Source of the DNA: an uncultured Bacilli bacterium
GTDB taxonomy: Bacteria > Bacillota_I > Bacilli_A > RFN20 > CAG-826
DNA length: 64,000 bases
Reading direction: 5' to 3'
NCBI GenBank assembly: GCA_944375905.1
Contig: CALWAS010000018.1
Span: 1-64,000 of the forward strand
Positions 2,564 to 24,887 of the stretch are shown in pieces; positions within the stretch are counted from its first letter, which is position 1, and each line of letters opens with the position of its first letter. The translations under genes and the position numbers were made by a program. Below the pieces are notes generated by a model, which did not search any database, was not told the origin of the DNA, and was given only the letters and a program-made list of their open reading frames with translations.

Positions 2564-2636
2564 CTTTACAGTGCCTCGGTTTTACGTATGCGTTCCAGAG
2601 CGTAAAATAGCGACGTTAATCCAAGGTGGAACAACC

Positions 2637-3353
2637 ATGTCTCAAAAAACATATGCATTGATAATAGCGGGTGGCGTCGGAGCCCGGATGAAAACCGACA
2701 TACCAAAGCAATTCCTGAGCGTCTTTGACAGACCAGTTATTTCCTACACCATGGAGGCCTTTGAGAATGACGAAAGGATCGACGGCATCGCCGTGGTATG
2801 CGTCGAGGGGTGGGATCATCTTCTGGATGCCATCGCCAAGCAGTACAAGATTAGTAAATACATGGGTAGTTGCCTCGGAGGCGATACCGGTCAACATTCC
2901 ATATATAACGGGCTTGCCTTCTTGAAGCAGAGGGTCGACGAAAACGACATCGTGCTGATACACGATGCCATTCGGCCGTTGGTCTCGGAGGAGATAATTG
3001 ACGACTGCATCGATAAGATCAAGGAATATGGAAACGCCGTTTCGGTCATCCCCTGCAACGAAGTGATACTTAGGAACGCCGAAGGATCGAACGAGACCTC
3101 TGACGGCACCATCGACAGATCCACCCTCAAGCGAACCCAGACGCCGCAAGGCGCCACGTTGAAAACGCTTCTCGAAATGCACGAAAAGGCGAAAAGGGAA
3201 GGAAAGGCTTACATCGCCACCGCCGACCTACTCCTGGGGTCGGGATACGTGGTCCATTACTCATTGGGGTCGGAAAAGAACGTCAAGCTCACGACGCAGG
3301 ACGATTTAGACATCATGAAAGCCCTCCTTGAGGTGTCAGGTCATGGAAAGTAA
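2637..3353 (+). CDS. IspD/TarI-family cytidylyltransferase (CDP-sugar/polyol forming)
   Basis: 238 residues. The family transfers CMP from CTP to a sugar- or polyol-phosphate. The nucleotide-binding motif AGGVGARM (11-18) and PKQ (23-25) are intact, followed by HDAIRPLV and the RTQTPQG segment typical of IspD/TarI. ATG 2637 is chosen because AAGGTGGA lies 7 nt upstream; an in-frame extension to 2571 has no such signal. IspD (isoprenoid) and TarI (CDP-ribitol) cannot be separated by motifs alone. Location in a capsule locus, overlap with an AraD-like gene and a following SDR and LicD gene argue for activation of a pentose or pentitol phosphate for surface decoration rather than the MEP pathway. 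The gene overlaps the next start by 11 bp. Confidence 0.85.
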   Translation: MSQKTYALIIAGGVGARMKTDIPKQFLSVFDRPVISYTMEAFENDERIDGIAVVCVEGWDHLLDAIAKQYKISKYMGSCLGGDTGQHSIYNGLAFLKQRVDENDIVLIHDAIRPLVSEEIIDDCIDKIKEYGNAVSVIPCNEVILRNAEGSNETSDGTIDRSTLKRTQTPQGATLKTLLEMHEKAKREGKAYIATADLLLGSGYVVHYSLGSEKNVKLTTQDDLDIMKALLEVSGHGK

Positions 3354-4053
3354 GAGCGCTTTCTTGCGTTTCCTTCGCGAGGAAAAGGAAAAAACACTTC
3401 GGGCCAATTTGCTGCTGCATGCCGAAGGGCTGGCTCCCCTTACGTGGGGCAACGTCAGCGAACGCGCCTATTTTGAAGGTAATGCCTATATCTTCATAAA
3501 GCCGTCTGGCGTCGACTACGGAGCAATGACTGCCGACGACATAGCGGTCGTAGACGAAAGCGGAAAGAAGATTGACGGGGGATTAAAGCCGTCGACCGAT
3601 CTGCCGACCCACTTAATGATCTACAGAGCCTACAAGAATGTTTTTGGCGTTTGCCATGCCCATCCTGAGTTTGCAGTTGCATGGGCCCAAGCGAAGCGAG
3701 ATATCCCAAATTACGGAACGACTCATTCCGACTTTGCCCTAGGGCCAATCAAATGCACTAGGGATCTCAGGAAAGAAGAAATCCAAAGCGATTACGAAGC
3801 CAACACCGGACTTGCCATTTTGGAATGCGCAAACGAGACCATGCCCGGGATCAACGCGAGTTCTCACGGCCCATTTACCTGGGGGAAGTCTGGTTTGGAT
3901 GCCGTTAAGAACATGATCACGCTAGAGAAAATTGCAAAGATGGCATTTCTGACTGAAGAACTGAATAGCAAGGCAAACCAGATTTCAGATACCGATCTAG
4001 CCAAAAAGCACTACTACCGCAAGCACGGGAAGGATGCCTATTATGGACAATAA
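3343..4053 (+). CDS. L-ribulose-5-phosphate 4-epimerase-like class II aldolase family protein
   Basis: 236 residues, class II aldolase/adducin fold, closest in pattern to AraD, which interconverts L-ribulose-5-P and D-xylulose-5-P using zinc. All expected residues are visible: GNVS at 36-39, Asp86 in STDLPTH, zinc ligands His105 and His107 in CHAHPEF, Asp130 in THSDF, His175 in SHGPFTWG and the terminal Tyr in DAYYGQ. ATG 3343 lies inside the end of the preceding gene with GAGGTG upstream, so translation is coupled. An arabinose catabolic gene would not be expected here: it is sandwiched between a CTP cytidylyltransferase and an SDR, so I infer that it supplies or reshapes the pentulose phosphate that becomes CDP-activated. 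The true substrate is unknown. Confidence 0.85.
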   Translation: MESKSAFLRFLREEKEKTLRANLLLHAEGLAPLTWGNVSERAYFEGNAYIFIKPSGVDYGAMTADDIAVVDESGKKIDGGLKPSTDLPTHLMIYRAYKNVFGVCHAHPEFAVAWAQAKRDIPNYGTTHSDFALGPIKCTRDLRKEEIQSDYEANTGLAILECANETMPGINASSHGPFTWGKSGLDAVKNMITLEKIAKMAFLTEELNSKANQISDTDLAKKHYYRKHGKDAYYGQ

Positions 4054-5083
4054 GCTTTACGAATATCTAAAGTCTGATTTCGAGACCATTTTTTCCACAA
4101 AACTCTCAAAAGTCTTGCCGCAGCTCAATCACTCTTCTTTTCTTATTACCGGCGCTACCGGGCTCATTGGCAAATATCTTTCATATTTCCTCATTTATCT
4201 AGTCGAGAAGAAGGGCTTCGATTTAGATCTAACCTTTTCTTCCTATGGCGAGGCAGAGTTGAATCAAGCATTTGGTTTTTCTAAGGCCAGCGTTCATTTG
4301 TTGCCGGGCGATATAACCAAAGGGCTGCCTTTTGACGGTAAGGCCGATTACGTTATCCATTTAGCTAGCAATGCGAATCCTGCCCTTTATATGCAGAAGC
4401 CGATAGATACCGAACTTGGAATCATAGTCGGAACGAACAACGTCCTTTCTTTGGCTTCGAAATCGAATTCCAAAAGAGTTTTCTTCGCCTCGACAACTGA
4501 TGTTTACGGAAACCCGATCAAATCGGGGCCTCTCTCGGAAGATGACATAGGCGTTTTCAATTGCAATAGTCTTCGAGGAGTTTATAACGAAGCCAAAAGA
4601 GCTGCTGAATCGCTTTGCCAAGGCTGGATTTCTGAAAAGGGATTAGATGTCGTCATCGGCCGGTTCTCGCGCCTTTTTGGCCCGACCGCCAACTTCAATT
4701 CATCCCTGGCCTCTGTTGCTTTCTTTAAAAAGGCCGTTTTGAATGAACCAATTGAAATTCTGAAGCCCACCACAGCTCGTTATTCGTTTACCTATGTCGG
4801 CAATGCCGTTGCCGCCATACTGCACTTATTGATCTGTGGCAAATCCGGACAGGCTTACAACATAGCTACAAAAGATTGCTTGGCGGAGGTTGATGGCTTT
4901 GCAAAGCAAATAATTACCGGGTCCGGTAGTCAGTCAGACATCATATATAAATCCGAAAGGACAAAGGGCCACGATGTCATATTAGAAACAGGGAAACTAG
5001 AAGCCAGCGGGTTTGAGGCCCCATTTGGTTCTAACTATGGAATCGAAAAAACAGCTATCAAATTAAAGGCAGGTTTGTTTTAA
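4043..5083 (+). CDS. NAD-dependent epimerase/dehydratase (extended SDR)
   Basis: 346 residues with Rossmann motif GATGLIG at 37-43, a DVYG segment and the active-site pair in YNEAKR (YxxxK). It belongs to the extended short-chain dehydrogenases acting on nucleotide sugars. A roughly 35-residue leader before the Rossmann fold is longer than in GalE-like members. ATG 4043 is preferred over ATG 4034 because GGGAAGGA (4027-4034) stands at the right distance from 4043. The gene overlaps the AraD-like gene by 11 bp, completing a three-gene coupled operon. It may oxidise, reduce or epimerise the CDP-linked product or its precursor; no closer assignment is possible from motifs. Confidence 0.8.
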   Translation: MDNKLYEYLKSDFETIFSTKLSKVLPQLNHSSFLITGATGLIGKYLSYFLIYLVEKKGFDLDLTFSSYGEAELNQAFGFSKASVHLLPGDITKGLPFDGKADYVIHLASNANPALYMQKPIDTELGIIVGTNNVLSLASKSNSKRVFFASTTDVYGNPIKSGPLSEDDIGVFNCNSLRGVYNEAKRAAESLCQGWISEKGLDVVIGRFSRLFGPTANFNSSLASVAFFKKAVLNEPIEILKPTTARYSFTYVGNAVAAILHLLICGKSGQAYNIATKDCLAEVDGFAKQIITGSGSQSDIIYKSERTKGHDVILETGKLEASGFEAPFGSNYGIEKTAIKLKAGLF

Positions 5084-5199: not shown

Positions 5200-6063
5200 C
5201 TAGTCTTTAATGGCATCTTCGTTGAAAGAGACACCGCATGTGAAATGGTGTGCAACGCGATCGCCTTCAGGCGGCAGTTGCATGTAGTTTCCATAAACCC
5301 ACCTAAGATACTCATCCCACTTTTTGGGGGCCGAAACTTTTCTGCCTTCAAAAACAACAGTTGTTCTCCCAACAAAAAGATCTGCCGGGCATCGTGCGAG
5401 AAGGTTGTCGCCAACATTGATGAATTTTTCTCGACCGGATGAATGTTTCCTAAGGTAGGTATTTCTTATTTTTCTGGCCTTGGTGGAGGAGCACCAGAAA
5501 AAAGCGGCATGGCCAGCAACTTGAAGCAAAAAATGTAAAAACGGGCGCTTCGGTTTCCCGAGTCTCAAAAAGTCTTTCGGGAAGCACTTAACATCAAGCA
5601 GAAGCAACCAAATGTCTCTAAGCGCCCCCCTAACAGACTTTTTAGAGGGCGTTGGCAATAAAGGAAAAATATCAATGAAAATCCCCTTGCTGGAATCGTG
5701 GCTTTGCTTGACATATTCATCATAAATAGTTCCGCGCATCATGAGCTTAGCAAAACTTTGCCAAGTTCGTGGATCTCGTTCTTCGACATCCAAATAGAAG
5801 AGATCAGTATCATCAAATGTGTCAATCAACCTGTAGTAGTCCTTGGCCGGCATTGCAACATCAAGGTCATCGTCCCAAGGAATATATCCTTTATGTCTTG
5901 CGGCCCCAAGCAAAGTGCCTCCAATAACAATGTAATCAAAAGCATTTTTGTTACAGTAATCAATAAAGAAATCTAGGATTTTCAGTTGGGTTTTACGAAG
6001 TTTTTTGCACTCTTCTTTAGTAAGTTCCACCACTGGCATTATCTCTGCATTTTTAACTACCAT
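5200..6063 (-). CDS. LicD-family phosphotransferase
   Basis: 287 residues. LicD proteins transfer a phospho-substituent (phosphocholine, phosphoribitol or similar) from a CDP donor to a surface glycan. The hallmark block lies at 48-70: IGGTLLGAARHKGYIPWDDD, followed by LDVAM; the Asp-rich metal site is intact. ATG 6063 is chosen because GGAGGTT sits 7 nt upstream (complement of 6071-6077); an in-frame extension to 6195 has no start signal. It converges on the cytidylyltransferase/AraD/SDR operon, and is the natural acceptor-side partner of that CDP-activated product. The protein continues beyond the core with a hydrophobic, basic C-terminal half. Confidence 0.88.
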   Translation of the reverse strand: MVVKNAEIMPVVELTKEECKKLRKTQLKILDFFIDYCNKNAFDYIVIGGTLLGAARHKGYIPWDDDLDVAMPAKDYYRLIDTFDDTDLFYLDVEERDPRTWQSFAKLMMRGTIYDEYVKQSHDSSKGIFIDIFPLLPTPSKKSVRGALRDIWLLLLDVKCFPKDFLRLGKPKRPFLHFLLQVAGHAAFFWCSSTKARKIRNTYLRKHSSGREKFINVGDNLLARCPADLFVGRTTVVFEGRKVSAPKKWDEYLRWVYGNYMQLPPEGDRVAHHFTCGVSFNEDAIKD

Positions 6064-6238
6064 GATTTTCAACCTCCAATTCAATCCGCTCAATCTTGTT
6101 CTTTTATGCTCATTTAAAATCGCAATAGAGCAACTGCCATTTAATGTTAACCGCTTAAAGCTTTTGATTCTTACCAATTCTTCTAAGAATTTCATTAAAT
6201 AGTGAGAAAGTTTTGAACTAGCCCCAATTTGGAGGTTA

Positions 6239-6427: not shown

Positions 6428-6452
6428 TTAGTCAATCGGGCCACACGAAAGG

Positions 6453-7205: not shown

Positions 7206-7211
7206 GGCTGA

Positions 7212-7330: not shown

Positions 7331-7636
7331 TCAACTGAAATTCAACATGCTGAGAAGTTCTTTTTCAGAATTGACATCTGCACTCTTTATTTGCCGCATA
7401 ACGTTATTGGGGCCGTTTCTTATTTCAAGCGATAACTCGAGCACTTCTCGGCACAAATAGGCTGCGTGCTTCTTGAATGCAAAAGCAGAAGAATTTTTCT
7501 GTCTAAACGAACGCTAAACTTCCTCCTTAAGAAACTTCATCAACGCTTCTGAATCCATCGAGCATATCACTGCGGCCCCATGGCCAAATACGGCATGCAA
7601 ACAAACGTCATAGGCTTTTCTGATGCAGTCCGTCAC
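7331..7636 (-). pseudogene. Unrecognised small gene interrupted by TAG
   Basis: A GTG at 7636 overlaps the TGA of the upstream glycosyltransferase (GTGA). It opens a 40-codon frame, MTDCIRKAYDVCLHAVFGHG..., closed by TAG at 7514-7516. The same frame continues without interruption for 60 more codons (KKHAAYLCREVLELSLEIRN...) to TGA at 7331-7333. Both halves are amphipathic, helix-like and protein-like in composition, so I infer one gene of about 100 codons killed by a single nonsense change, or a 40-residue protein plus relic. The fold is not recognised. The translational overlap shows it belonged to the glycosyltransferase operon. Confidence 0.45.
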
Positions 7637-8853
7637 TTCAGCTCTTCAACACATGTAATAAAATCATCCAAATAATTATCAAGATCAAACTTACAAGCCT
7701 GTTCTCTGGCCCTCAATTCATATTCTTTAATAATGGCAGGGTTGCGTTGCAGAGACTCTATTGATTCTTTCAATTGAGAAACCAAATCCTTGTTTGTGTC
7801 AATAACGATGGCAGAATCGCCAACTATTTCTGGAATTCCTCCATCGTTTGTTGTGACAAGCGCCTTTCCACAAGCTAGTGCTTCGAAAACAGTAAGGGGG
7901 CAAGGATCGCCCCAGTCGGAAGGCAAACACACAACATCGGATATGGCATATATGGCCGGCATCTGATCATGCTTGACGTAACCAGTAAAAACGATTCTAT
8001 CTTTTATTTCTAGACAACTGCCTCGCAATTCAGACTCAAACGGGCTCTTTACTGATGTGTCGTAAAAATTGTTCCCCACAATCAAAAGAACCTTATTTGG
8101 AACCGAAACACGTTTGAAGGCCTCAACTAAATATCCGATTCCTTTTTCAGCACAGATTCTTCCAACAAAAAGGATAACAAAACTACCTTTCGGTATGCCG
8201 AAGCGTTTAAATAAACATTCTTTGTCTATCTTTATCGGTTTGTATTGCTTCAGATCAACGGCATTGAACAGCGTCTTTACACTTGTTTGCTCCGACTCAA
8301 TGCAATCGATTTTGCCAAAAATGCCTGTCACATAATCGGAAACAGTAATTATTCCCATTAATGACCCCAGCACGCCCTCAACACCGTAAAGTCTTTTTGG
8401 AATTGAGTGGGCATGATAAACAACTTTTTGTTTCAAAAAGTGGCGATCGCTCTTTAAAAACGCCCTTAACACGGGAATCGAGTTTTCCTCAACCAAACAG
8501 TCAAAATCGAGTTGTTTTATTATTCTGCTGGCCTTTTTATAGTAACTGCGAGTCCTGAACATAAAACCATATGACATAGTCCTTTGGCTTTTAAGTAATT
8601 TGAGAATGCAGGTGAAAGCTGAATCCAGAAGGCAAGCGACTTTTGAAGGTTTGATAAAGATAAAGTCAGAATTTTCATATTTTTTTGATGACGCTTGGGC
8701 TTCTATGTCAAATGCGCTTATAACAACAAACTTGGCGCGTTTTAAAATCTCGTTTCTTTTTAAGAGTCCGTCCTCAATTAGGGTTTCAACCGCCCCGCCG
8801 TGTACTGCAGGAACCGGAAGCTTGTTTCCGCATAGCATTACAATTTTTTTCAT
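7633..8853 (-). CDS. Family 4 glycosyltransferase
   Basis: 406 residues, GT-B fold, retaining GT4. The N-terminal domain has a glycine-rich loop (VPAVHGGAVETL) and the C-terminal domain has FVGRICAEKGIGYLVEAF and the donor-site E-x7-E region PCPLTVFEALACGKALV followed by DGGIPEIV. It adds a hexose-type sugar to the growing oligosaccharide; the exact sugar is not predictable. ATG 8853 directly abuts the stop of the preceding gene (TAA at 8854-8856), with GGAGGC upstream, so the two glycosyltransferases are co-translated. Codon usage is AT-rich compared with the housekeeping genes of the window. Confidence 0.9.
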   Translation of the reverse strand: MKKIVMLCGNKLPVPAVHGGAVETLIEDGLLKRNEILKRAKFVVISAFDIEAQASSKKYENSDFIFIKPSKVACLLDSAFTCILKLLKSQRTMSYGFMFRTRSYYKKASRIIKQLDFDCLVEENSIPVLRAFLKSDRHFLKQKVVYHAHSIPKRLYGVEGVLGSLMGIITVSDYVTGIFGKIDCIESEQTSVKTLFNAVDLKQYKPIKIDKECLFKRFGIPKGSFVILFVGRICAEKGIGYLVEAFKRVSVPNKVLLIVGNNFYDTSVKSPFESELRGSCLEIKDRIVFTGYVKHDQMPAIYAISDVVCLPSDWGDPCPLTVFEALACGKALVTTNDGGIPEIVGDSAIVIDTNKDLVSQLKESIESLQRNPAIIKEYELRAREQACKFDLDNYLDDFITCVEELK

Positions 8854-10164
8854 TTAATGCCTCCTTTTTCCCAAATATGACATCAGATCTTTCCTAAATT
8901 TAGATGATTGCTCCCCTTTGTTAAAGAATGTCGTGGCCACGTTAAATTGATTTTCTCTTGATGTCTCGAGACGTTTAAAATTGTTCGCGTTAAATTCCGT
9001 AAGAACTATTTTTAGCGTTTCCTCATCATTAACTGACAATCCTGAATCGGTCGCCCTAAAAAAATCTATGGTGCCAGAGCTAGAAGGGCCAAATGCTATT
9101 ATTGGCTTTCCAGAACAGACATAATCGCCGACTTTAGTGCTAAGGGCGAATTCGGTTGATCGGATGTTTCCTTTTTTAAATCCTTCCGCAACTAATAACC
9201 CATCAGCTTTATTTTTAATGATCTCGATTACTTTTGAATATGGGATGCCTTTGTGTAAAGTCAAACAAGACGGCAATTTTTTCCCATCAAAACGTTCAAT
9301 ATCTGGCGCATATACATATATTTTCAAATCAGGGTATTTGTATTTGGAAATTCTAGCAAAAGTCAATATTGACTTGTCTCTCCCAAGAGAAAGATTCCCA
9401 AAGTAATATAAGTTTGTGAGTTTTTTGGAACCTGAACTCTGCGTTGGCCGTATTTCACTTGGTATATAAACCACGCTGCCATCAAGACCATACTCATCTT
9501 TGAAATGTTTCCTAATTTTGTCAGAATTAAATATTCCGTATCCATCTTTTGACATTAATCCTTTAACATATTTCAAAAAATTACGATGATAGTGGGAGTA
9601 AAGGGGCGTTTTCTTGTCGTAGTTGTATGGAAAGTCATCAGCGATGTAATAAAAAATTGGAATGTTAAAAAGTTTCTGATAATGCTCGGCTATTTCAAAA
9701 AGGAAAAAGTCATATGAAAATCCCAAAAAAATCGCTTCTGGCTTAAATGCAAGAACCTCTTTTTCAAGTTCCTTTGTGTCCCAGACACCGTTTTTCCAAA
9801 TCCATTTTCTTAAGTAATACGAAAGAATGCCTCTTTTCTTAAACGAAAGCCTTTTAATAGAATCATCTTGTTCCCATTCGTCTTTCAAGGAATCAGAAAA
9901 GAACAGTTTTCCAATTTTCCGTTTTTTATTGATCTTGTGAATCAAAAGGTCAATGTCCTTTATTTGATAAAAAGTTGAACAGTGACCTCTGCACGGAACG
10001 CGGGGATCGGCAAAGATTTGAAATAGTTTTTCAGATGGATAGGACCAAAAGCATGAATCAAAGGCCCTTGTTTGCATGGATTTATTATAGGGGACAACAG
10101 AAACTACAAGGATTCTTGGCAGCGATGCACCTAGAAGGCTTTTTTGGTCTTTTTTTTCTTTCAT
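8854..10164 (-). CDS. Glycosyltransferase, GT-B type
   Basis: 436 residues. The N-terminal part (PRILVVSVVPYNKSMQTRAFDSCF) and a C-terminal half containing YYFGNLSLGRDKSIL, FALSTKVGDYVCSGKPIIAFGPSSSG resemble GT-B enzymes in which the donor pocket is built around the KVGDYVCSGKP segment. It lacks a clean E-x7-E, so I place it only at fold level. A Shine-Dalgarno GGAGGCC precedes ATG 10164. It is first of a two- or three-gene unit with the GT4 gene downstream and lies just after an EpsG-like polymerase, which fits a role in repeat-unit assembly. Function in terms of sugar and linkage unknown. Confidence 0.72.
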   Translation of the reverse strand: MKEKKDQKSLLGASLPRILVVSVVPYNKSMQTRAFDSCFWSYPSEKLFQIFADPRVPCRGHCSTFYQIKDIDLLIHKINKKRKIGKLFFSDSLKDEWEQDDSIKRLSFKKRGILSYYLRKWIWKNGVWDTKELEKEVLAFKPEAIFLGFSYDFFLFEIAEHYQKLFNIPIFYYIADDFPYNYDKKTPLYSHYHRNFLKYVKGLMSKDGYGIFNSDKIRKHFKDEYGLDGSVVYIPSEIRPTQSSGSKKLTNLYYFGNLSLGRDKSILTFARISKYKYPDLKIYVYAPDIERFDGKKLPSCLTLHKGIPYSKVIEIIKNKADGLLVAEGFKKGNIRSTEFALSTKVGDYVCSGKPIIAFGPSSSGTIDFFRATDSGLSVNDEETLKIVLTEFNANNFKRLETSRENQFNVATTFFNKGEQSSKFRKDLMSYLGKRRH

Positions 10165-10286
10165 TTGGCCTCCTCCATATAGGCTTAGCCTCAGTCAGTT
10201 TAAACTAGCTATCAGCTATCGTTCCTAAGCTCTATTGATTATTGTTTGGTTCCAATAAGAACAAACAACGACACGTGGTAAAACCG

Positions 10287-11459
10287 TTAGAAGGCGAAAT
10301 TAAACTCATATGGATAAATGTTGATTGAAGGATCCAAGTATATCGTATAAATGAAAAATAAAGCAAAACACAATATGAATAACCAGGCAAGCGGACGTCT
10401 GATCTTTTTTACTCGCTCAACGCTTGGCACATTCGAAATTAATACGCAGACAGCAGGCAAAAAGAACCACGTAAGCCTGGGAACAATGGTTGATGCGCTT
10501 GAAAAAGCTTGAATTGCGGCTGCCAAAAAAGCAGGCCCTATGAAAGTTGCGGTTTCAATTTCATCTGATCTGGACAACGTATATCGATTTCTCCTTGGTG
10601 GCATGGAGTCGAGTGAAGCGAATAGCTTTATGCTAAAAAGGTATTTGTTCAAATAATCAAATAATTCGTTAGAAAGAAGGCAAAACGAACATCCAAGGGC
10701 CAACAATAAATACACAACCGAGAGCATTCCTACGCCTTGTTCTGTCGGAAGGTACGAAGTATGAACCGAAAACATAGAAATGGCGAATCTATAAATCTGG
10801 TTTCCGAACAGCATAACGAGAACGGTTAGCGAAGCCATTAAGGCAACCCTCGGCCAAGTCCATCTAAATTTCCAAAGGGGGGCAAAAGCAAAAGCCAAAA
10901 TAGCCGATTTGTGAAAAGTAATTGAGAGCAATACAATAACAGTAAATAAGAACAGGCCAATAAACGAATTCTTTGACTTATACAAAGCGACCAACGCCAA
11001 GCAAACAAGAGCCACTGCGCAAAATTGCCTAAGAGCGGAGAGGCCTGAGAAGAAAAGACCAATTCCAAGAAACGAAGCGGCAAAAAGAGAGATGTTTTTC
11101 GAAAAAAAGTACGCAAAAATTCCAAAACAAGTGTAGCACAGCAGGTAAATAAAGCATTGAAACCATTTGAAACTCATTCCGAGATGAGAAATTAAGCTAG
11201 CCACGAAAACAAAGCCAGGCTCAAATCCCTTGTATGAAAAGACTGGAAATTCGGCATTAGCTATCTCGTTGTATGCAATCAGATATTGCTCTGTATCGAT
11301 TCCAACAACGTTGTCTTTAAAAACGGAAACAAGAAACAAGGCGCTAAAACATAATATGCAGGCGAGCAAGCGAGACGTCTTCCTGTTTTTTAAAAACAAT
11401 ACGTCCAGTAAGGGGCCAATTATTATGGAAAACAAAAACACTGTCGAATAAACAATCAT
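10287..11459 (-). CDS. EpsG-family polysaccharide polymerase (Wzy-type)
   Basis: 390 residues, about ten hydrophobic helices. It shows the EpsG-family signatures: an early VGIDTEQYLIAYN loop after the second helix, FEPGFVF, GLSALRQFCAVAL in the middle and TFHKSAI. EpsG/Wzy proteins join repeat units on undecaprenyl diphosphate at the outer membrane face. The start ATG 11459 overlaps the stop of the upstream flippase fusion by one base (TAATG), so the polymerase is translationally coupled to the flippase. An arginine-rich insertion around residue 290 (MPPRRNRYTLSRSDE) is probably a cytoplasmic loop. Confidence 0.82.
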   Translation of the reverse strand: MIVYSTVFLFSIIIGPLLDVLFLKNRKTSRLLACILCFSALFLVSVFKDNVVGIDTEQYLIAYNEIANAEFPVFSYKGFEPGFVFVASLISHLGMSFKWFQCFIYLLCYTCFGIFAYFFSKNISLFAASFLGIGLFFSGLSALRQFCAVALVCLALVALYKSKNSFIGLFLFTVIVLLSITFHKSAILAFAFAPLWKFRWTWPRVALMASLTVLVMLFGNQIYRFAISMFSVHTSYLPTEQGVGMLSVVYLLLALGCSFCLLSNELFDYLNKYLFSIKLFASLDSMPPRRNRYTLSRSDEIETATFIGPAFLAAAIQAFSSASTIVPRLTWFFLPAVCVLISNVPSVERVKKIRRPLAWLFILCFALFFIYTIYLDPSINIYPYEFNFAF

Positions 11460-14143
11460 TAGAAATTAAGCGGCCCCCCGTCCTTCCTGGCGAAAATATC
11501 GGATCTGTCATAAAACAAAGATCGGCCGTCGCAAAATGCAGAAGCCGCCAAAAGCACAAACAATAGCCCGCAAAGTAGGGAAACGCCAGTGGACGACAAT
11601 AGAACAAACGCTATCCCAGAACAATATATAGTAGGTCGGGAAAGACACAGCAGCATAAACAAAAGAATAATTAAACTAGATAGAACAACTGGCGCCCTTT
11701 TAATCGTATTCGTCTTGTTCAAAAAGATATATGAAACACCGATTGTGACAAATGAGCACAATAAAGCAAATGAAAAAAGCAAACGCTGCAAATCATTGTT
11801 CTTCCAGTAAAACGAATGGTTAGAAATTATTGCCTTTTGCAAGTCAGAGGAAGCATTCTCTCCTGACAAAGAAACTATTGAGTATTCCGTTTCAAATTGA
11901 TTTCCAACATTTCTTAAAACTGGATTTAAAATTTGGAGCGAACTTGCAGTTTCATTTACGTTTCCTCTAAAAAGAAAGTCCAGTGAAATCCCATACATGT
12001 AATAAGTACAGTACAAGGGTCCAGCAAAACAAAGTTCATTACCGCCAGTGATCATAAAATCCGAGCAAGACTCGTCAGTAACAATTCCAACAACTACAGA
12101 ATTGAATTTATAGTCATACGGCTTTTTAATGTCCGTTTGAATCTCACGACCAACTACATCTTTAATGCTTCTTAGACCCAACGAAGCCACTAATGAGTTT
12201 GCTAGAGTTTCATTAACTAGTACATCTTGGTCGCGCATTAAAGAATCTACACTGCCATCAATAAATTCAAAATCAGAAAAGTACTCCAGCGTTGTAATCG
12301 AAGCAAAGACCGATGGCTGTATGTTTTCATTCATAACAAAGCCAGCCGAGCTACGTTGATAGTAACAAGAAACTGTTTCTTTCAGAATTGGATTAGCCGC
12401 GATGCTTCTGGCGACATCCCTAAAAGGAAGGAGCGAATCAACTGTTGCGTCGGCGTTGTCTTGGCTAATAGACAAGCAAGCGAATTCAGCACCGGCGCTA
12501 TCGACATAAGTCTGAAGAGTATATGCGTCGGCCTCAAAAGAATCGCCATCTGAAAAAGTTCCAACAGCAAGTGAAAAAACACAAAAAGTAAGAGTCGCGA
12601 CTTCAAAAAATAGGAAGGATGCTTTTTTCTTCTTAAACAGGAGTTTGAAGGATCTTCTTGCATTATCTAGCTTATCCCCCAAAAATGAAATTTTCTTAGG
12701 CAACAGTTCTCTGCAAATCACAGCGACTTCGGATTTAAAAAATATCAGCAAATAAGCAACATCTATAATTAAATATGCAAAAAAGCCAGGAATGGCCTCG
12801 TCGAAAATGAAGGCTGTGAAGTAGAAGAGCAAAACAGCTAATATGAGGCCAATAATATTTTTTGAAAAGTTGATATTGAAGTCGGCTTTCATTCTCCAAG
12901 CTACAAACAGATACCAGATTAAAGATCCCAGCACCTGAGCTAAGGCCATAACAACAATATTTCTAGTCGTAAAATAGAAAACCAGACTAAAGCAAACATA
13001 AGAAGCAAGTCCGATAATGGAATAAAGAGAGAACCTGATGTTTTTTTTGACGACTTTAAAATATGTCTGGAGGACTACGAAAAGGCACGAACAAATAAGG
13101 ACGTTAGGCATCAACAGGGTCAGTATTGTAATAGATGGGACATATTTAGTAATCCAATGTTGGATGATATATACTGCAGGAAAATATGCGACTAGCAAAA
13201 ACGATGCCGCAATACACATGGCAGCCCCTGCAACAGGATAAAACTTATCAAGTTTTTCTTTGCTAAGTCTTTTCAAAATAGGAAACATTGCAGTTGCGCA
13301 TGCAGTTAAAGCAGTATTGACAAGAGACATTACAGAAGAACAAAACGAATAATAGGCAAATTGTTCTTTTGGAAATAAAAGTTGGATGGCCTGCGGCACA
13401 GACGAGGTAGAAAAATTGATGATGGCGTCACATATCAATAGTGGCAGTCCAAATTTAAAAATTTCCAAGATGTCCTTCTTACAGTCTCTTAAACGCGCAG
13501 CCTTCCCAAATATCAAATTTCTATAGGTAAAGACGTACATTATCATTAAAACTGCAAAAATTAAGACATATGCCAACGTATAAGCCTCAAAAGAAATCAA
13601 ACTAGTTAAGCCAAAAATTTGGAAAAGCCAAAAAATGCCAACAACTGCTATTTTCAATAAAGCTTGGAGGATGAAACGCCGGGAATATTCGCCCAGTCTT
13701 AAAGTTACCTGCGAAAGCAGCTGAAAATATGTGTTGATATTTGAACAAAGAGAATATATGGAGATAAAAGCCAAAATGGATCTGGTTGTGATGTCAGAGA
13801 TAAAAAACGAAACCGAGAACAGAGATAAGCTTATAAAGATTTCGATGAATCCGAAAAAACGAGAAAACAGTCGGAATTTTTGGCTGTCTAATTCATCCAG
13901 ACACTTGTCGCCATATAGGAGGTAAATTCCGCTTGCAAAACCAATCTGGAAAAAATTTACGTAGCCGGCATATAAAGTAAACGTCCTAAATAAACCGTAA
14001 TCGTTTACACTAAGAATGTTGGGAACGACGAAACTGGCTAATACCCCGCTTAAGAGAAGGATTAGATTAGAAACGACTACGAAAGCAGTGCCTCTTAAAA
14101 GGGAGGATTTAGTAATTTTTGTTGCCTGATTGGTTTTTGACAT
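11459..14143 (-). CDS. Wzx-type flippase fused to a MacB/FtsX-like permease module
   Basis: 894 residues in one uninterrupted frame. Residues 1-480 form an oligosaccharide flippase of the MOP superfamily (opening helix FVVVSNLILLLSGVLASFVV, NDYGLFRTF, about twelve to fourteen helices) that moves lipid-linked repeats across the membrane. After a basic linker (495-507, LFKKKKA) a second module begins: one helix at 508-528, an extracellular domain of about 255 residues, and three helices at 787-807, 818-836 and 843-871. The extracellular part contains VLVNETLANSLV (641-652), DVVGREIQ (662-669) and SVVVGIVTDE (682-691), the pattern of a MacB periplasmic core domain, and the 1+3 helix layout is that of MacB/FtsX-type ABC permeases. 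No ATPase gene adjoins it. The usual flippase length is about 480 residues. The flippase call is strong; the MacB-like call rests on motif and topology. Confidence 0.8.
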   Translation of the reverse strand: MSKTNQATKITKSSLLRGTAFVVVSNLILLLSGVLASFVVPNILSVNDYGLFRTFTLYAGYVNFFQIGFASGIYLLYGDKCLDELDSQKFRLFSRFFGFIEIFISLSLFSVSFFISDITTRSILAFISIYSLCSNINTYFQLLSQVTLRLGEYSRRFILQALLKIAVVGIFWLFQIFGLTSLISFEAYTLAYVLIFAVLMIMYVFTYRNLIFGKAARLRDCKKDILEIFKFGLPLLICDAIINFSTSSVPQAIQLLFPKEQFAYYSFCSSVMSLVNTALTACATAMFPILKRLSKEKLDKFYPVAGAAMCIAASFLLVAYFPAVYIIQHWITKYVPSITILTLLMPNVLICSCLFVVLQTYFKVVKKNIRFSLYSIIGLASYVCFSLVFYFTTRNIVVMALAQVLGSLIWYLFVAWRMKADFNINFSKNIIGLILAVLLFYFTAFIFDEAIPGFFAYLIIDVAYLLIFFKSEVAVICRELLPKKISFLGDKLDNARRSFKLLFKKKKASFLFFEVATLTFCVFSLAVGTFSDGDSFEADAYTLQTYVDSAGAEFACLSISQDNADATVDSLLPFRDVARSIAANPILKETVSCYYQRSSAGFVMNENIQPSVFASITTLEYFSDFEFIDGSVDSLMRDQDVLVNETLANSLVASLGLRSIKDVVGREIQTDIKKPYDYKFNSVVVGIVTDESCSDFMITGGNELCFAGPLYCTYYMYGISLDFLFRGNVNETASSLQILNPVLRNVGNQFETEYSIVSLSGENASSDLQKAIISNHSFYWKNNDLQRLLFSFALLCSFVTIGVSYIFLNKTNTIKRAPVVLSSLIILLFMLLCLSRPTIYCSGIAFVLLSSTGVSLLCGLLFVLLAASAFCDGRSLFYDRSDIFARKDGGPLNF

Positions 14144-14158
14144 TTTTTCGTGAATAGT

Positions 14159-14315
14159 TTACTTCTTGAGAACCTGGAAGTAATCCCCAAAACGATTGCC
14201 ATATTTAGAAGCTAACTTTTCGGCTTTAGAAGGTTCTGTCATGCAAATCCATTACGTGCACAAATTAACTAAAATAGATTCAATTAAAAAAGAGGCTCTG
14301 TTCAAATCGGGCTGC
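14159..14315 (-). pseudogene. Decayed 3' end of an unidentified gene
   Basis: Minus-strand frame ending at TAA (14159-14161) reads ...FLIESILVNLCT, an in-frame TAA, then WICMTEPSKAEKLASKYGNRF and GDYFQVLKK. The last part has the look of a genuine C-terminus, and a protein-like frame persists on both sides of the stop. It lies directly upstream of the flippase fusion in the same orientation, so it is probably the tail of a lost glycan gene. Family not recognised. Confidence 0.35.
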
Positions 14316-14532
14316 AGAGAGACATTTCGGCGCCTTAATTTTTGGGACACACTTTACATTGTGAGACATGTCCAAATCAGAGCAAGACGCCCAGGCTTAT
14401 TTCTAAAGAAAGACTAACATTAAGGAAGCCCGGTATTTCAGTCGCTCAATAAACAATGCATAGTTTAATTTGATATAGAATTGCTCTTGTTATCATTTAC
14501 TATTAGTCACGATTTGAATTTGGGAGAAAACC
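14316..14532. other. Intergenic region before capG
   Basis: AT-rich, no convincing gene on either strand. A short plus-strand frame overlapping 14196-14417 has no ribosome binding site and runs antisense to the relic. A good Shine-Dalgarno (GGGAG) marks only the capG start at 14533. Promoter elements for capG must lie here but no clear -35/-10 pair stands out. Confidence 0.4.
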
Positions 14533-15666
14533 ATGGCTGGACATAAGCTGAAACTAGTAACCATCGTCGGAACACGTCCTGAGATAATTCGTCTTTCTGA
14601 AGTGTTAAAAAAAGCAGACAAATATTTTGACCACAAGCTCGTCCATACCGGTCAGAACTATGATTATGAACTCAATGGCGTCTTTTTCAAAGAGCTGGGC
14701 TTGAGAGTTCCTGACTATGTCCTTAACTGTGCAGGAAAAGACCTAGGAGAAACAATGGGCAACGTCATTGCCCAAAGCTATACGGTTCTCAAGAAAGAGA
14801 ATCCGGATGCCGTTCTAGTTCTAGGAGACACAAATTCTGCCCTGTCCGCTATCGCTGCAAAGAGGCTCAAACTACCAATCTTTCATATGGAAGCTGGTAA
14901 TAGATGCTGGGACTGGAACGTCGCAGAAATGACCAATAGGACCATCGTTGACCACATTTCGGACGTGAATCTGCCATATACAGAGAATTCAAGACTATAT
15001 CTTTTAAAAGAAGGGATCGATCCTAAACGCGTATTTGTCACTGGGTCGCCAATGCATGAGGTAATTAAAGTTCATCGCGATGAAATCATCAGTTCGAAGG
15101 CCCTAGACAAACTAGGAATTAAGAGGAATGGTTACATTATCCTTTCCGCCCACAGGGAAGAGAACATCGACATCGATGACAATCTCGATTATCTAGTTGA
15201 CTCTGTCAATACCATTGCGGAAACCTATAGGTTGCCTGTTATTTATTCACTTCACCCAAGATCCAGAAAAAAACTTGAAGCAAGGCGAATAGAACTTCAC
15301 CCCCTTGTCAAAGAAATGAAGCCGTTCGGTTTCTTCGATTACGTGAATCTCGAGATGAATGCGAAACTAGTCATCTCCGATTCCGGGACTCTTACTGAAG
15401 AAGCATCGATGGTTAACTTCCCCGCCGTCCTCCTGAGAACATCTACGGAAAGGCCAGAAGGCCTTGACGAAGGAAACATCGTCGTTGGCGGCATTAAAAG
15501 GAATGATGTTCTAAGGGCTGCCGAACTAGCCATGTCCATGCATGAAAACCGCGACGATGCCTACACACTCCATCACGACTATGAAGACACAGATGTATCT
15601 AGCAAGATTATAAAGATAATCCAAAGTTATTATCACATCGTCAAAAAAGAAACGTGGCTACAGTAA
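14533..15666 (+). CDS. capG: UDP-N-acetyl-L-fucosamine synthase (CapG/FnlC-type 2-epimerase)
   Basis: 377 residues, non-hydrolysing UDP-GlcNAc 2-epimerase superfamily. Motifs: IVGTRPEIIRL (11-21), VHTGQNYDYELN, VLGDTNSALSAIAAKRL, FHMEAGNRC and SDSGTLTEEASMV. The NYDYELN and HMEAGNRC forms resemble the Staphylococcus CapG/FnlC branch, which epimerises UDP-2-acetamido-2,6-dideoxy-L-talose to UDP-L-FucNAc, more than generic WecB/MnaA. CapE and CapF genes for the first two steps are present at 16,965-19,076, which makes the CapG assignment much more likely. GGGAG lies 8 nt before ATG 14533. The gene is on the opposite strand to capE and capF, separated from them by a glycosyltransferase gene. Confidence 0.88.
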   Translation: MAGHKLKLVTIVGTRPEIIRLSEVLKKADKYFDHKLVHTGQNYDYELNGVFFKELGLRVPDYVLNCAGKDLGETMGNVIAQSYTVLKKENPDAVLVLGDTNSALSAIAAKRLKLPIFHMEAGNRCWDWNVAEMTNRTIVDHISDVNLPYTENSRLYLLKEGIDPKRVFVTGSPMHEVIKVHRDEIISSKALDKLGIKRNGYIILSAHREENIDIDDNLDYLVDSVNTIAETYRLPVIYSLHPRSRKKLEARRIELHPLVKEMKPFGFFDYVNLEMNAKLVISDSGTLTEEASMVNFPAVLLRTSTERPEGLDEGNIVVGGIKRNDVLRAAELAMSMHENRDDAYTLHHDYEDTDVSSKIIKIIQSYYHIVKKETWLQ

Positions 15667-15671
15667 TTTTT

Positions 15672-16874
15672 ATGCTTTCTGAAAAAAAGATTTGCTATCT
15701 GAACAGTTCAACTACAGGATCAACTGGCGTCATTGTCAATTCTTTAGCAAGAGCCGCAGCGACTCATGGCTATGAAAGCATGTTCCTATCCCGCGGAACA
15801 AAAAACCCAAATTATTTAGGCGAATATACGAATATTCTGCCCCACCGCTTCTCCTATTTATTTTCTAGAACGCCAACATTTTTAATTGACGGGGACGGCT
15901 TTCGGTCTAAGAATGCGACAAAGCTTGCCCTAGGGGCTATCGATGCTTTTAAACCGCAAATTATTCATATTCACAATCCTCATGGCTCCATTATCAATAT
16001 TCAATCAATATGCAAATATGCGAAATCGAATGGCATAAAAATAATCTGGACATTGCATGACGCTTGGACAGTAACTGGCCGTTGCGGCTATCCTTTTTTC
16101 TGCAAAGGTTGGAAAACTGGATGCAAAACGTGCCCTAATCATGCCTTTTACCCACGAGTGTTTTTTTCTCAATCAAAAAAATTTTTTAGGCTGAAGCATG
16201 ATCTGATCGATTTGCTCATCACCTCGCAGGCCATATTTGTCTCTCCGTCAATGTGGCTGGTAAACTTTTTCAGGAGTTCTTATCCAAATGCTGACGTTCG
16301 CCTGATACGTAACGGGATCGACATTTCCATTTTTAAACCAGACGGCGGACAGAACGATCAAATCCTCAAGTTTGCTAGCGGACGAAAAGTCATCGGCGGC
16401 ACATCTTTATCGGCAGGAAAGGGCGGATTCTATTTTGAAGAACTTAGTAAGCACCTAGATCCCAAGAAATATTGCATTGTTGTAGTTGGATGTCCCGAAA
16501 GCAAAATCGTCTCAACAACTTTAATGAACTTAAAATCCCTTTCTTCAAGAGAAGAGATGGCAAGTTTTTACCGTACTATTTGGGTTCTTTTAAGCCCAAC
16601 GCAGAATGATAATTTCCCCACAACGCATTTGGAAAGTATTTCCTGTGGCGCTCCCGTTCTTACATTTAATGTCGGAGGGGCTTCTGAAATGATTGAACAG
16701 GGTGTAAACGGATACAGTGTTTCATTGAACGACAAAGAAGCGTTATTTAAAAAACTATTTGAGATGCTTGACCGCGATTGGGACAGAAAGATTGTTAGCT
16801 CTAGCCAAACTCTAACATCAAATAGAATGTCCGACGAATATGTTAATACCTATGATCAAATGCTAAACAGGTAA
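15672..16874 (+). CDS. Family 4 glycosyltransferase
   Basis: 400 residues, GT-B, GT4 family. Typical for a branch of capsule transferases is the block HDAWTVTGRCGYPFFCKGW followed by further Cys residues (GCKTCP), which probably forms a structural or metal-binding knot. The donor-site region is NFPTTHLESISCGAPVLTF with GGASEMI. It follows capG by 5 nt if it starts at ATG 15672; a GTG at 15654 would overlap capG by 13 bp. I prefer ATG 15672 because TACAGT stands seven bases before it and neither start has a Shine-Dalgarno. It adds a sugar, possibly using or accepting FucNAc; inference from neighbours only. Confidence 0.87.
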   Translation: MLSEKKICYLNSSTTGSTGVIVNSLARAAATHGYESMFLSRGTKNPNYLGEYTNILPHRFSYLFSRTPTFLIDGDGFRSKNATKLALGAIDAFKPQIIHIHNPHGSIINIQSICKYAKSNGIKIIWTLHDAWTVTGRCGYPFFCKGWKTGCKTCPNHAFYPRVFFSQSKKFFRLKHDLIDLLITSQAIFVSPSMWLVNFFRSSYPNADVRLIRNGIDISIFKPDGGQNDQILKFASGRKVIGGTSLSAGKGGFYFEELSKHLDPKKYCIVVVGCPESKIVSTTLMNLKSLSSREEMASFYRTIWVLLSPTQNDNFPTTHLESISCGAPVLTFNVGGASEMIEQGVNGYSVSLNDKEALFKKLFEMLDRDWDRKIVSSSQTLTSNRMSDEYVNTYDQMLNR

Positions 16875-19144: not shown

Positions 19145-20713
19145 TCAGGCCTCTTTCTTTCGAAGGAAGAGGGATTTGATTTCCTTATGGAATGTAAGGA
19201 AGGCCAAAAGAACGAAGACAAAGGAAAAGAGAATGGCTTCGATCAAGAACGAAGGAATGTATCCAATGCTCGAAGTCGGTATGACGGCTTTGCTGAAAAA
19301 ATAGACGGCGACCGCCGACCCAGCAGCAAAAGCCAACAAGAGAAGGGCTTTCCAAAGGTGAGAGGGAACCGGGAGTCTTAACTTCCGCCAATAAATGAAA
19401 TGGTTAACGATGCCAAACGCGATGAAGGAAGCCGATCCAAGACCGATGACCGGCCCATAGACTTTGTATTCGTCCGGGAGATAGATGACGAGGAGAGCGG
19501 CAGCAAGAGCCCCTAGAAGGGCGATTCCCAAATCGATTCCGGCGATGAGGCCGTGCTTCTTCTTGGCACGCGCAACCTCCATGGCCGCATTCCCGGTAAG
19601 CGGAATGGCAAAGCACCAAAGATAGGCGCATCCTAGGTAGAACACCGTGTCCTTGGCCCAGGAATCGAGTCCCGTATTGTTGAGCCAAGCATAGACGAAT
19701 TCATGCCCGGAAGCCGTGAATCCTCCGGCTATGAGGGCGACGACAAGAGCCGTCGCGAACGAACATTTCCGATAAAGGGCATTTGCTTCCTCACCGTTAC
19801 CGGATACCACTGCTTCGTTAATCGAAGGAATGAATACGCGGGATATGGAAAGGGCGAATAGCGACTCGTAAGTGAAGAACTCGATGCCATAGGCGACCAA
19901 CGTTACGTCCTCGACGGCTCCGAAGGCCCCGACGGCCCAGCGTCCGAAACCGGCATTGAGTTCGGAAACGACCATCGACATGAATACGAAGGCCGAGAAG
20001 GAGAGCACCTCTTTGAGAAGCGGCTTGGCCTCGTTTAGGCTCAGCCTTTCAAAGCCCATTTCATGGTGGAAAAGCGAGGCGATTAAGCAAACGATCCCGC
20101 TTATGAGATTGGCGATGATCACTGCTATGGCAACGTAGATGGCATCTCCCCCGACGGTAAGGGCGACGGCCCCGATGGTCGCGGCGATTATCTTGGTCAG
20201 TATGTGCGCCCCTTGGTAGACGACGAAGTGGGTTTTGAAGAAGAGATGCCACGAGAAAAGCGATAGGAAGAATCCGATTCCTTGCGACAATCCGAGAATG
20301 AGCACGTAATTGGTCATCAACTCGTGCTCTGGAATGTCATATCCGGTCACGACGATGCCTGATTTGAAAAACGAATAGACGATGAGGGTGCCGATGATCT
20401 CGGCCATGGCGATGGCACCAAAAAGCCAAAGGTAGAACGTGTTGACCTTCTTGAGCCGATCTGGGCCCTCTTTCTCCGCCTTGGTGGCGAAGCGGACATA
20501 GGAGTTCTCGATTCCGAACGAGAGAAGGGAAAGGAAAAGAACGATGCTAGCCGCGTATTGATAGATCCCGTCTTTCGTCTCGCCGACAATGCTCAAGCAG
20601 TATGGAGGATAGAGAAGGGAAACGACGAGGGAGACGAGAACGGCCAGAAACGACATGAAGACGCCGGTCCTTATCCCGGCTCCATGACGCGGCTCAATGA
20701 CTTTTGATGGCAT
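19145..20713 (-). CDS. Polysaccharide flippase (MOP superfamily, Wzx-type)
   Basis: 522 residues, about fourteen hydrophobic helices, PST family. N-terminal GAGIRTGVFMSFLAVLVSLVVSLLYPPYCL, the NSYVRF element after the second helix and the long alternating hydrophobic profile fit Wzx. It exports an undecaprenyl-linked repeat. This is the second flippase of the locus, unrelated in detail to the fusion protein at 11,459-14,143 and of higher GC, like the flanking housekeeping genes. AAGGTAGG lies 5 nt before ATG 20713. The pair capE/capF downstream and the polymerase upstream suggest it serves the FucNAc-containing polymer. Confidence 0.88.
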   Translation of the reverse strand: MPSKVIEPRHGAGIRTGVFMSFLAVLVSLVVSLLYPPYCLSIVGETKDGIYQYAASIVLFLSLLSFGIENSYVRFATKAEKEGPDRLKKVNTFYLWLFGAIAMAEIIGTLIVYSFFKSGIVVTGYDIPEHELMTNYVLILGLSQGIGFFLSLFSWHLFFKTHFVVYQGAHILTKIIAATIGAVALTVGGDAIYVAIAVIIANLISGIVCLIASLFHHEMGFERLSLNEAKPLLKEVLSFSAFVFMSMVVSELNAGFGRWAVGAFGAVEDVTLVAYGIEFFTYESLFALSISRVFIPSINEAVVSGNGEEANALYRKCSFATALVVALIAGGFTASGHEFVYAWLNNTGLDSWAKDTVFYLGCAYLWCFAIPLTGNAAMEVARAKKKHGLIAGIDLGIALLGALAAALLVIYLPDEYKVYGPVIGLGSASFIAFGIVNHFIYWRKLRLPVPSHLWKALLLLAFAAGSAVAVYFFSKAVIPTSSIGYIPSFLIEAILFSFVFVLLAFLTFHKEIKSLFLRKKEA

Positions 20714-20794: not shown

Positions 20795-22894
20795 CTATTT
20801 CTTCGCGAGCTGCTTCTTGTTGCGAAGCACCTTCCTCTCGTACAAATCGTCCATCTTGGCTTCAGCGATTAGATTGTGGCGGTCGAACGCGTGTTCGATG
20901 GCCATGAAGTAATCGTCAAAGCCGCTATCGACCATCTTAGCCGGCCTTAGCACATAAACGAGCGACCAAAGAACGACCGCAAAAAGAGACGATGTAAGAA
21001 CGAGGAACCCGTCTTCGGGAATCACGACGCTGACGCCAAAAGCGAAAACTAGCGATCCGATGACGACGAAGAGATACGGAACATAATTTCTCACAAGAGT
21101 CGTGATTGGAACATTGCTTTTGAAAAGAAATGGGATCGCGATGAAAGCAACGGCCAAGGCAAGCGAAAGAATGACGGCAATGCCCGGATCGACAAGGAAA
21201 GGAACGACATAGGCAAGCACGAGAAGGATGGTTCCTCCTAAAAGGGCAAATAGCCGCGAGAATAAGGAGAACTTCTGATCATAAGAGCCGAATACAGCCG
21301 GAGCGAAGACGGCATAAATAGCCATGCAGAAGACGCAAGCCATCCCCTTCGGCGTGGAAATGCCTACTAATTCGGAAGTTAGCCAAATTCCGAAGACAAC
21401 GGGGAGGGCGCTGAAGAAAAGCGACCTCTTCAAGGCATAGTTGGTTCTTGGCCCATCGACGATGGCGTGGGTTTTGTAGGTCGAGTAATCGGCCATGACG
21501 GCTTCCTCGATTTCAGGATGCTTATGCAAATGGTTGTAAGTCAGCGGGACGAGGGCGACAACGGCATAGAAGCCAAGCGTGGCCGAATCAAAGATCATGA
21601 GTCCGCCCATCTCGAAGAAGGTTCTTACCAAAACGGCGACGTAGATTCCAAGCGACACCGTCGATTCCTTGCATCCGCGGGCCATGGCCTTGAGTATCAC
21701 GACAAGAACCGCAATCCAGACGATGACATTGAGCGAAAGGCCCAAAATGCCATTCGAAAGGTAACTGTATATCCAGTCATTATCGGTCGGAAGGCCATGG
21801 AAGACGGAACCGGAATTGGCGCCGAAGAAAACCATCAGAGAAGATTTGACGCCCAGTCCGAAGAACATGCCGATTGGACCAAATCCATTAACCGTGTCGA
21901 TGGCCTTAAGCGTCCACTCCCATCTCGCGCCAACCGTGTCGAAGCCAATGTTGATTATGCTGGCGAAGATGTCTTTGAAGACATTGAGAAGAGGGGCATT
22001 TCCCTTTTCGTCTGGAATTACGAAGTAGATGACGATTCCAGCTAAAACAAGCAAAACCCCCATCAAAATTAGTAAGTTCCTAATCTTATGGGCTTTGAAT
22101 GACCGGGCAAAGCACATGATCGGCATCACTATCATCATGAACAGCACGATGATCGAATGGGTCCTGGACATAAGCGGAATCTGCATGAGGGCAAGGAAGA
22201 CCACGATCAGCCACCGCCACCACCGCGGGGTCCGCGCCAGGACGAGAAACTCCGAAAGGAAAGCGACGAAAAGGACGAACCCGAATATATTCTTGTTAGC
22301 ATAAAAGCTCCCAATGTCTTGGTTCATTTTCCCTTCCGTGAAGAAGAGCTTCCACGCCTCGTTTTCCATGACCAGCGACCCGGCAATTGAAAGAATCGCA
22401 ATGAAGACGATTATCCTGAGAACGTACCTTATCCACATCGTTCCGCCAATAATCCTGGGAAGAACGCTGTAAGCCAAGAAAAAGGTCAGGGCATTGAGAA
22501 AGCCAAGGATGATGAACCTCGCCTTATAAGCAATATCGAAAGTGAATACTACATTGCCGTCGTAGATAACATCATTGCAGTTCATGACAACCGCGACGGT
22601 ATTGCCGGCCGCAAGCAAAAGCGCTATTAAAAGCCAGCCCCACTGAGTGGTAGTCCGATAGCCGAAATAGGCTATGGAAAGAATGGATACCCCCAATAGA
22701 AAAGCTAGTCCGGAAAGAGCAAAGAATTGAAAGTTGTCGATTTTGCCTATGAAATCGCCATTCGCCAAAAGCCCGTTTCCCTCAAGCAAGAAGAAGAAAA
22801 CGATTACGTACAGCGTCCCCAGAATCCCAACCATGAACGATTGGGGCCGAGGAGGCACGATTTTTCGATGAATGATGGACGATATGGCTGCCAT
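20795..22894 (-). CDS. O-antigen ligase/polymerase family membrane protein
   Basis: 699 residues with many helices and the large extracytoplasmic loop of the Wzy/WaaL (Wzy_C) family: GSFYANKNIFGFVLFV followed by LMSRTHSIIVLFMM, and a loop with GARWEWTLKAIDTVNGFGPIG and a conserved LPTDNDWIYSYLSNGILGL segment. It either polymerises repeat units or ligates the finished chain to a lipid or wall acceptor. It is longer than the usual 400-450 residues because of an extra C-terminal membrane block (roughly from residue 500) and a basic tail (YERKVLRNKKQLAKK). It lies between the hydrolase and the flippase, same strand, and is probably co-transcribed. Confidence 0.82.
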   Translation of the reverse strand: MAAISSIIHRKIVPPRPQSFMVGILGTLYVIVFFFLLEGNGLLANGDFIGKIDNFQFFALSGLAFLLGVSILSIAYFGYRTTTQWGWLLIALLLAAGNTVAVVMNCNDVIYDGNVVFTFDIAYKARFIILGFLNALTFFLAYSVLPRIIGGTMWIRYVLRIIVFIAILSIAGSLVMENEAWKLFFTEGKMNQDIGSFYANKNIFGFVLFVAFLSEFLVLARTPRWWRWLIVVFLALMQIPLMSRTHSIIVLFMMIVMPIMCFARSFKAHKIRNLLILMGVLLVLAGIVIYFVIPDEKGNAPLLNVFKDIFASIINIGFDTVGARWEWTLKAIDTVNGFGPIGMFFGLGVKSSLMVFFGANSGSVFHGLPTDNDWIYSYLSNGILGLSLNVIVWIAVLVVILKAMARGCKESTVSLGIYVAVLVRTFFEMGGLMIFDSATLGFYAVVALVPLTYNHLHKHPEIEEAVMADYSTYKTHAIVDGPRTNYALKRSLFFSALPVVFGIWLTSELVGISTPKGMACVFCMAIYAVFAPAVFGSYDQKFSLFSRLFALLGGTILLVLAYVVPFLVDPGIAVILSLALAVAFIAIPFLFKSNVPITTLVRNYVPYLFVVIGSLVFAFGVSVVIPEDGFLVLTSSLFAVVLWSLVYVLRPAKMVDSGFDDYFMAIEHAFDRHNLIAEAKMDDLYERKVLRNKKQLAKK

Positions 22895-23894: not shown

Positions 23895-24887
23895 CTACGA
23901 ACGCTTTCTAGACAAAAGGAACGCAACAAGCAAAGAGAAGATGGAAAGAATTAGGACAACGAGGATGCCATAGGCCGACATTGGGAAAAGAACATCGAAG
24001 GCATCGCCATCGACAAACGATCCAAGAAGATAGTTGACCCCGAGAGACGCAAGGTATCCAACAAGGAGCGAAGCAGTAGCTCCGACTGCAACATACTGAA
24101 CTCCCCGTTCCTTCAAATATGCGGCGACCAAGCTGCAATAGACATATCCATACATCGCGGCGATGAGCACGACCAGCACGACAAGGAAGGCCCCCATCCC
24201 AAAATCGGAAACGGAGAAGACGGCGCCGGCCAAGGCCGCGCCAATTCCGGAAAGCAAGCCAAATAAAGCCAAGAGCAGATATGTAAACCACTCATTCCTG
24301 AGATGATTTCCGAGATTGATGGGAGGGTAGACATCGCCCAGGCGTTCGTAGCGCCCGATCTCGGTTTCCCTCACATGAGGCTTGTTCCTTCTTTTGAAGA
24401 CAATAGGCAATTCCCTAGAGGTAGAAAAAAGCTTCAATAGCTCTTCTTCCCTACCGCGGTTTTCCCTTTCGTCTAAATCGAAGGATAGATAAAGGCAGTT
24501 TTCTTCTTTAAGAGACTTGAGAAGACCGGATACGCGATCTTCGTTGCTCTGTTCGTCTTCGCCCTTCTTTGGAGATAGGGAAGCAATGTGCTCGACGATC
24601 TCCTTTTGTTTCTCATAAGGGGCAAGAAAAACGGCTTTGGCGAATCCGATCTTCCTTATCGAAAGAGCCAACTCAAAAAACGGTTCCTTAACATCCTTCG
24701 AAGAGAAAATCTCCTTCTCGCCATCAAGAATCTTGACCTCGCCGTCTTCATAGTACGGGGACATGAATCCGATCAAATCAAAGTCATCGGAGTTCAGAAT
24801 GTTTACTCCAGGAGAAAGAGAAACGACGAGGGCGTCGCCGCCATCACGCTTGGCAATGAATCTAATGGAGCCCATCGACGAAATCAT
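23895..24887 (-). CDS. Membrane protein of unknown function with N-terminal soluble domain
   Basis: 330 residues, not recognised. Residues 1 to about 200 are soluble and charged; four hydrophobic helices follow (near 203-225, 230-255, 262-285 and 295-325), ending in RKRS. The N-terminal half contains no catalytic motif that I know. Start could also be ATG 24875 (MGSIRF), four codons later. The gene is divergent from the initiating sugar transferase (about 120 bp apart by the preferred starts) and downstream reads toward the hydrolase, so it may share control with glycan synthesis. Confidence 0.6.
   Translation of the reverse strand: MISSMGSIRFIAKRDGGDALVVSLSPGVNILNSDDFDLIGFMSPYYEDGEVKILDGEKEIFSSKDVKEPFFELALSIRKIGFAKAVFLAPYEKQKEIVEHIASLSPKKGEDEQSNEDRVSGLLKSLKEENCLYLSFDLDERENRGREEELLKLFSTSRELPIVFKRRNKPHVRETEIGRYERLGDVYPPINLGNHLRNEWFTYLLLALFGLLSGIGAALAGAVFSVSDFGMGAFLVVLVVLIAAMYGYVYCSLVAAYLKERGVQYVAVGATASLLVGYLASLGVNYLLGSFVDGDAFDVLFPMSAYGILVVLILSIFSLLVAFLLSRKRS

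Follow-up and report, generated by a model that had tools for sequence, protein, structure and literature searches.

The question raised by this locus is whether a single bacterial protein really joins a lipid-linked-oligosaccharide flippase to a MacB/FtsX-like permease module, and what such a protein could do. The gene lies in a stretch of 64,000 nucleotides (the window), on contig C18; the draft assembly to which it belongs comprises 1.22 Mb in 27 contigs and is 97% complete. Its single open frame runs on the minus strand from an ATG at 14143 to a stop at 11459 (14143..11459) and encodes 894 amino acids; translation of 11459-14143 on the plus strand gave many stops. Direct reading of the sequence showed that the junction between the two parts is in frame and without a stop, so the uninterrupted 894-residue frame proposed by the initial annotation is present.

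Residues 1-490 (12674..14143, minus strand) were assigned to the Wzx / Polysacc_synt / MOP type on the basis of Pfam, homologues, and hydropathy. The match to PF01943 (Polysacc_synt) was weak, with an E-value of 5.6e-4, under the curated cut-off. Our protein search at the levels of order and class found full-length flippase homologues matching residues 10-484 down to E 8e-71, and hydropathy indicated 12 or more hydrophobic segments in this half. The 25 homologues are 450-507 aa long and end where the extra part begins; none of them has the tail. In length, topology, and identity (roughly 21-33% to homologues across the class), this half resembles the Wzx/Polysacc_synt proteins (PF01943) of the MOP superfamily. 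These comparisons confirmed the prediction that residues 1-490 make up a complete Wzx-type flippase, as had been proposed for the N-terminal part. A scan of genome_contigs found no close relative of it. Among the approximately 150 Polysacc_synt matches listed from 395 genomes of the class, the real open frames did not exceed 583 aa; an apparent flippase frame of 24398 residues in genome G454 was a stretch of masked N and not a real gene.

The fusion protein differs from known Wzx/Polysacc_synt proteins in two respects, the addition of a 400-residue C-terminal module and the replacement of D71 and of a later D-R segment. D71 is conserved in all 25 homologues. It belongs to an HFGxxDGIYLxYGG-type motif at residues 63-79, of which D71, H66, and G79 are lost here, and the D-R-Q segment at residues ~247-252, which most homologues keep, is lost as well. 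Most other near-invariant flippase columns are retained. Conservation of D71 and of the D-R segment is a trait of this flippase subfamily and is not required of all Wzx proteins. The two losses may point to altered coupling in the flippase, and they make the activity of this half on its own uncertain.

The C-terminal module, residues 494-894 (11462..12664, minus strand), was examined by hydropathy, by an iterated profile, and by shuffle and natural-ORF controls. Hydropathy placed TM1 at residues 510-528 (12560..12616, minus strand) and TM2-TM4, a shortened FtsX part, at residues 788-871 (11531..11782, minus strand), with the three helices at 788-806, 817-835, and 853-871. The tail thus has one TM, a loop of 259 residues, and three TMs, in agreement with the 1+3 topology claimed for it; the TM1-TM2 loop is 206-256 residues long in most single-module permeases. 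The linker at 485-509 is positively charged and fits a cytoplasmic junction, so that the long loop of the tail would lie on the outside, next to the exit of the flippase. Within this loop, residues 607-691 (12071..12325, minus strand) form a putative MacB periplasmic-core-like segment that our profile alignment shows to be collinear with the MacB/FtsX PCD core. It contains the MacB-core-like motifs quoted in the initial annotation, VLVNETLANSLV, DVVGREIQ, and SVVVGIVTDE, all of which are present in the sequence. AlphaFold predictions from the single sequence without an alignment gave pLDDT values of 39 for the tail and 32 for its extracytoplasmic part, which are too low to say anything about the fold.

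Direct searches with the tail gave no relatives. Pfam gave no hit to residues 494-894 at E-values up to 1, so the proposed match to MacB_PCD and FtsX did not hold at the level of Pfam. Other MacB/FtsX permeases, several of them fused to ATPases, were found in the same genome, and the tail was not among the matches listed when this genome was searched with MacB_PCD and FtsX up to E 10; in that search a prefilter precedes scoring, so it yields no measured E-value for the tail. No relatives of the tail were found in 145 related genomes, 395 genomes of the class, genome_contigs, viral contigs, or plasmids, and the weak matches that were read proved to be unrelated, among them RNase R and amylase-like proteins. 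The PDB sequence search returned three annexins at E ~0.8, which we took as chance, and the pairwise scores of the motif segment were at chance. The same architecture was found in no other genome searched, so that a single gene in one draft genome represents the fusion.

More remote comparisons gave a different result. A test by hhalign with a narrow MacB profile was negative, the tail scoring below its shuffles, and no signal came from a profile limited to MacB, LolC/E, and permeases related to them. After Bacteroidota-type FtsX modules had been added to the profile, the tail scored 9.2 bits (P 3.1e-5) and ranked 1/3001 against 3000 shuffles made within 25-residue blocks, which preserve hydropathy; this result came from one of four profiles tried, and two of the four single profiles gave nothing. 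With an iterated profile of 128 module sequences, from which the tail was left out, the best domain of the tail reached 15.9 bits, compared with 7.3 bits for the best of 3000 shuffles, but its whole-sequence score was only 6.4 bits (rank 2/3001). The alignment is collinear and covers residues 607-803 of the fusion protein, starting in the extracytoplasmic core and reaching to TM2. In a control with 338 natural ORFs, everything above the tail was an FtsX/MacB permease; other diverged ABC-type ORFs scored 14-15 bits, and 10.0 bits was the highest score reached by any clearly unrelated ORF. The relatedness to MacB/FtsX claimed at the outset escapes Pfam but finds support in a profile made for the purpose and checked against shuffles and natural ORFs. 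This similarity supports a reading of remote homology rather than of family membership, and the tail is very probably a remote relative of MacB/FtsX permeases.

Compared with MacB (type VII ABC) and FtsX-like permeases (PF12704 and PF02687), the tail is alike in its 1+3 topology, its loop length, and its collinear core motifs. It differs in having no family-level match, in lacking the TM2-TM3 coupling segment and the C-terminal signature, in its fusion to a flippase, and in the lack of any ATPase partner that we could see. MacB contacts its ATPase mainly through a major coupling helix located between TM2 and TM3 (PMC5985334). At the expected site of this helix the tail has a short cytoplasmic loop, residues 807-816 (11696..11725, minus strand), and the distance between the starts of TM2 and TM3 is 29 residues, compared with 38-62 in modules with parsable helices. 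The R-x-K-E-I-G-I-x-K-x-x-G-A-type signature that follows TM2 in relatives is absent from the tail, and so is the C-terminal PA-x-x-A motif, the C-terminal FtsX signature. An alternative alignment could put a degenerate coupling segment inside TM3, with the deletion behind this segment; in either alignment the FtsX part is short of about 30 residues.

No ABC ATPase gene was found among the 20 neighbouring ORFs scanned (89-28923), in agreement with the earlier statement that none is adjacent, and neither the fusion protein nor EpsG contains an ABC ATPase domain. The proposal of a half transporter that recruits an ABC ATPase was weakened by these results, because TM2-TM3 is shortened, neither the coupling-helix signature nor the C-terminal FtsX signature is present, and the scanned neighbours include no ATPase gene.

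The gene downstream (10287..11459, minus strand) encodes an EpsG-type polymerase (PF14897, E 4.7e-29), whose ATG shares one base (TAATG) with the stop codon of the fusion gene. The initial annotation had suggested that this translational coupling could tie flipping to polymerisation. The overlap is real in this genome, but conserved linkage gave this idea no support, since the ten adjacent ORFs that we tested at loci of flippase homologues included no EpsG. The third-position GC is 0.39 in the flippase, 0.36 in the tail, and 0.43 in EpsG; three genes located at 18-23 kb have values of 0.58-0.66. The similar values of the flippase, the tail, and EpsG suggest a shared history and fit a common, probably acquired block. 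The fusion gene, EpsG, glycosyltransferases, and LicD lie in a low-GC block at ~4000-17000 (GC 0.35-0.47, with flanks of ~0.5-0.6) that looks acquired.

Other genes of the window were noted as well. On one side of the cluster are genes for an IspD-like cytidylyltransferase (2571..3353, plus strand), a class II aldolase-like protein (3328..4053, plus strand), an epimerase (4034..5083, plus strand), and a LicD-family protein (5200..6195, minus strand), which suggests a phospho-substituted or CDP-sugar-based glycan. On the minus strand, 19145..20713 encodes a second flippase-like membrane protein of 522 aa (7.7 bits to our local flippase profile, no Pfam match), and the adjoining 20795..22894 encodes a 699-aa membrane protein, also with no Pfam match; the two may make up another flippase/polymerase pair of this cluster. 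Two other minus-strand ORFs without a Pfam match encode 436 aa (8854..10164) and 330 aa (23895..24887), the latter with C-terminal hydrophobic stretches.

Four other explanations of the gene were weighed. The frame could in nature be two genes, a ~490-aa flippase and an independent MacB/FtsX-like gene, brought into one frame by indels from sequencing or assembly or by a mutation that arose very recently in this strain. The junction (12667..12690, minus strand) carries a T5-G5 run exactly at the boundary between the two modules, and both other frames close within ~10 bases, where homologous flippases end; an ATG lies just 3' of the junction and is followed by an A-rich run, and the only source is one draft genome in 27 contigs. 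That ATG, however, is out of the frame of the tail, so that a second, compensating indel would be needed. The genes flanking the fusion gene look intact, which argues against widespread indels, and a stand-alone tail gene was not found in the 145 relatives or the 395 genomes of the class. We regard such a split as unlikely. Also unlikely is a tail unrelated to MacB/FtsX, that is, an orphan membrane domain of 1+3 topology with a chance resemblance in its motifs. The empty Pfam search, the missing entry in the own-genome lists of MacB_PCD and FtsX matches, the PDB search without a match of note, and the negative hhalign test would all fit it, but the prefilter of the genome scan may have dropped the tail before scoring, and the shuffle and natural-ORF controls, the collinearity from the core to TM2, and the similar loop length speak against chance.

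If the tail were instead a working ABC permease half, it would use a MacB-type ATPase encoded elsewhere and couple ATP to flipping or release. Its remote similarity to MacB/FtsX, the other such permeases in the genome, several of which are fused to ATPases, and a coupling segment that could survive in degenerate form inside TM3 are consistent with this, but the short TM2-TM3 segment, the two absent signatures, and the scanned neighbourhood without an ATPase gene make it quite improbable. The least probable of the four is a decaying or neutral fusion without function in an acquired, low-GC polysaccharide island. The loss of the invariant D71 and of the D-R segment, the second flippase-like gene at 19145..20713, and the base composition of the block would suit decay, but all 894 codons are still open and the gene is still coupled to an intact EpsG.

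The explanation that we prefer, to which we give about an even chance, is a flippase whose extracytoplasmic accessory module, derived from MacB/FtsX, works independently of ATP and gates the flippase or hands over the flipped unit. Against it count the low whole-sequence profile score, the profiles that gave no signal, the departures of the flippase half from its family, the absence of EpsG from the homologous loci tested, and the single genome, which with no relatives of the tail offers no evidence of selection. According to this model, a second membrane module would be attached to the cytoplasmic C-terminus of a Wzx-type flippase. The tail would descend from a MacB/FtsX-type permease, having retained the extracytoplasmic domain and the 1+3 layout and lost the parts that touch the ATP-binding subunit. 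The flippase half would most likely carry a lipid-linked repeat unit outward across the membrane. At the outer face the domain of the tail, without ATP, could hold or screen the unit or pass it to an enzyme there; alternatively, it may gate the flippase. EpsG is the candidate partner at the outer face, and the obvious one because it is co-translated with the fusion protein. The fuller version, in which the motor-free module receives or gates the lipid-linked unit and passes it to EpsG, making one polypeptide a flip-and-hand-over device, is put forward as a doubtful, speculative extension.

A flippase with an added domain has a partial precedent. Mycobacterial MurJ/MviN is a MOP flippase with an extra C-terminal part that bears an extracytoplasmic domain, but this extension consists of a pseudokinase and a different extracellular domain and is not MacB-like. 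To our knowledge, how flipped repeat units reach the outer-face polymerase is still poorly understood. The weight of the present case is limited by its single draft genome. A flippase with its own extracytoplasmic domain would make the hand-over to the polymerase directly testable, and would provide an example of a MacB/FtsX module that is used without its ATP motor.
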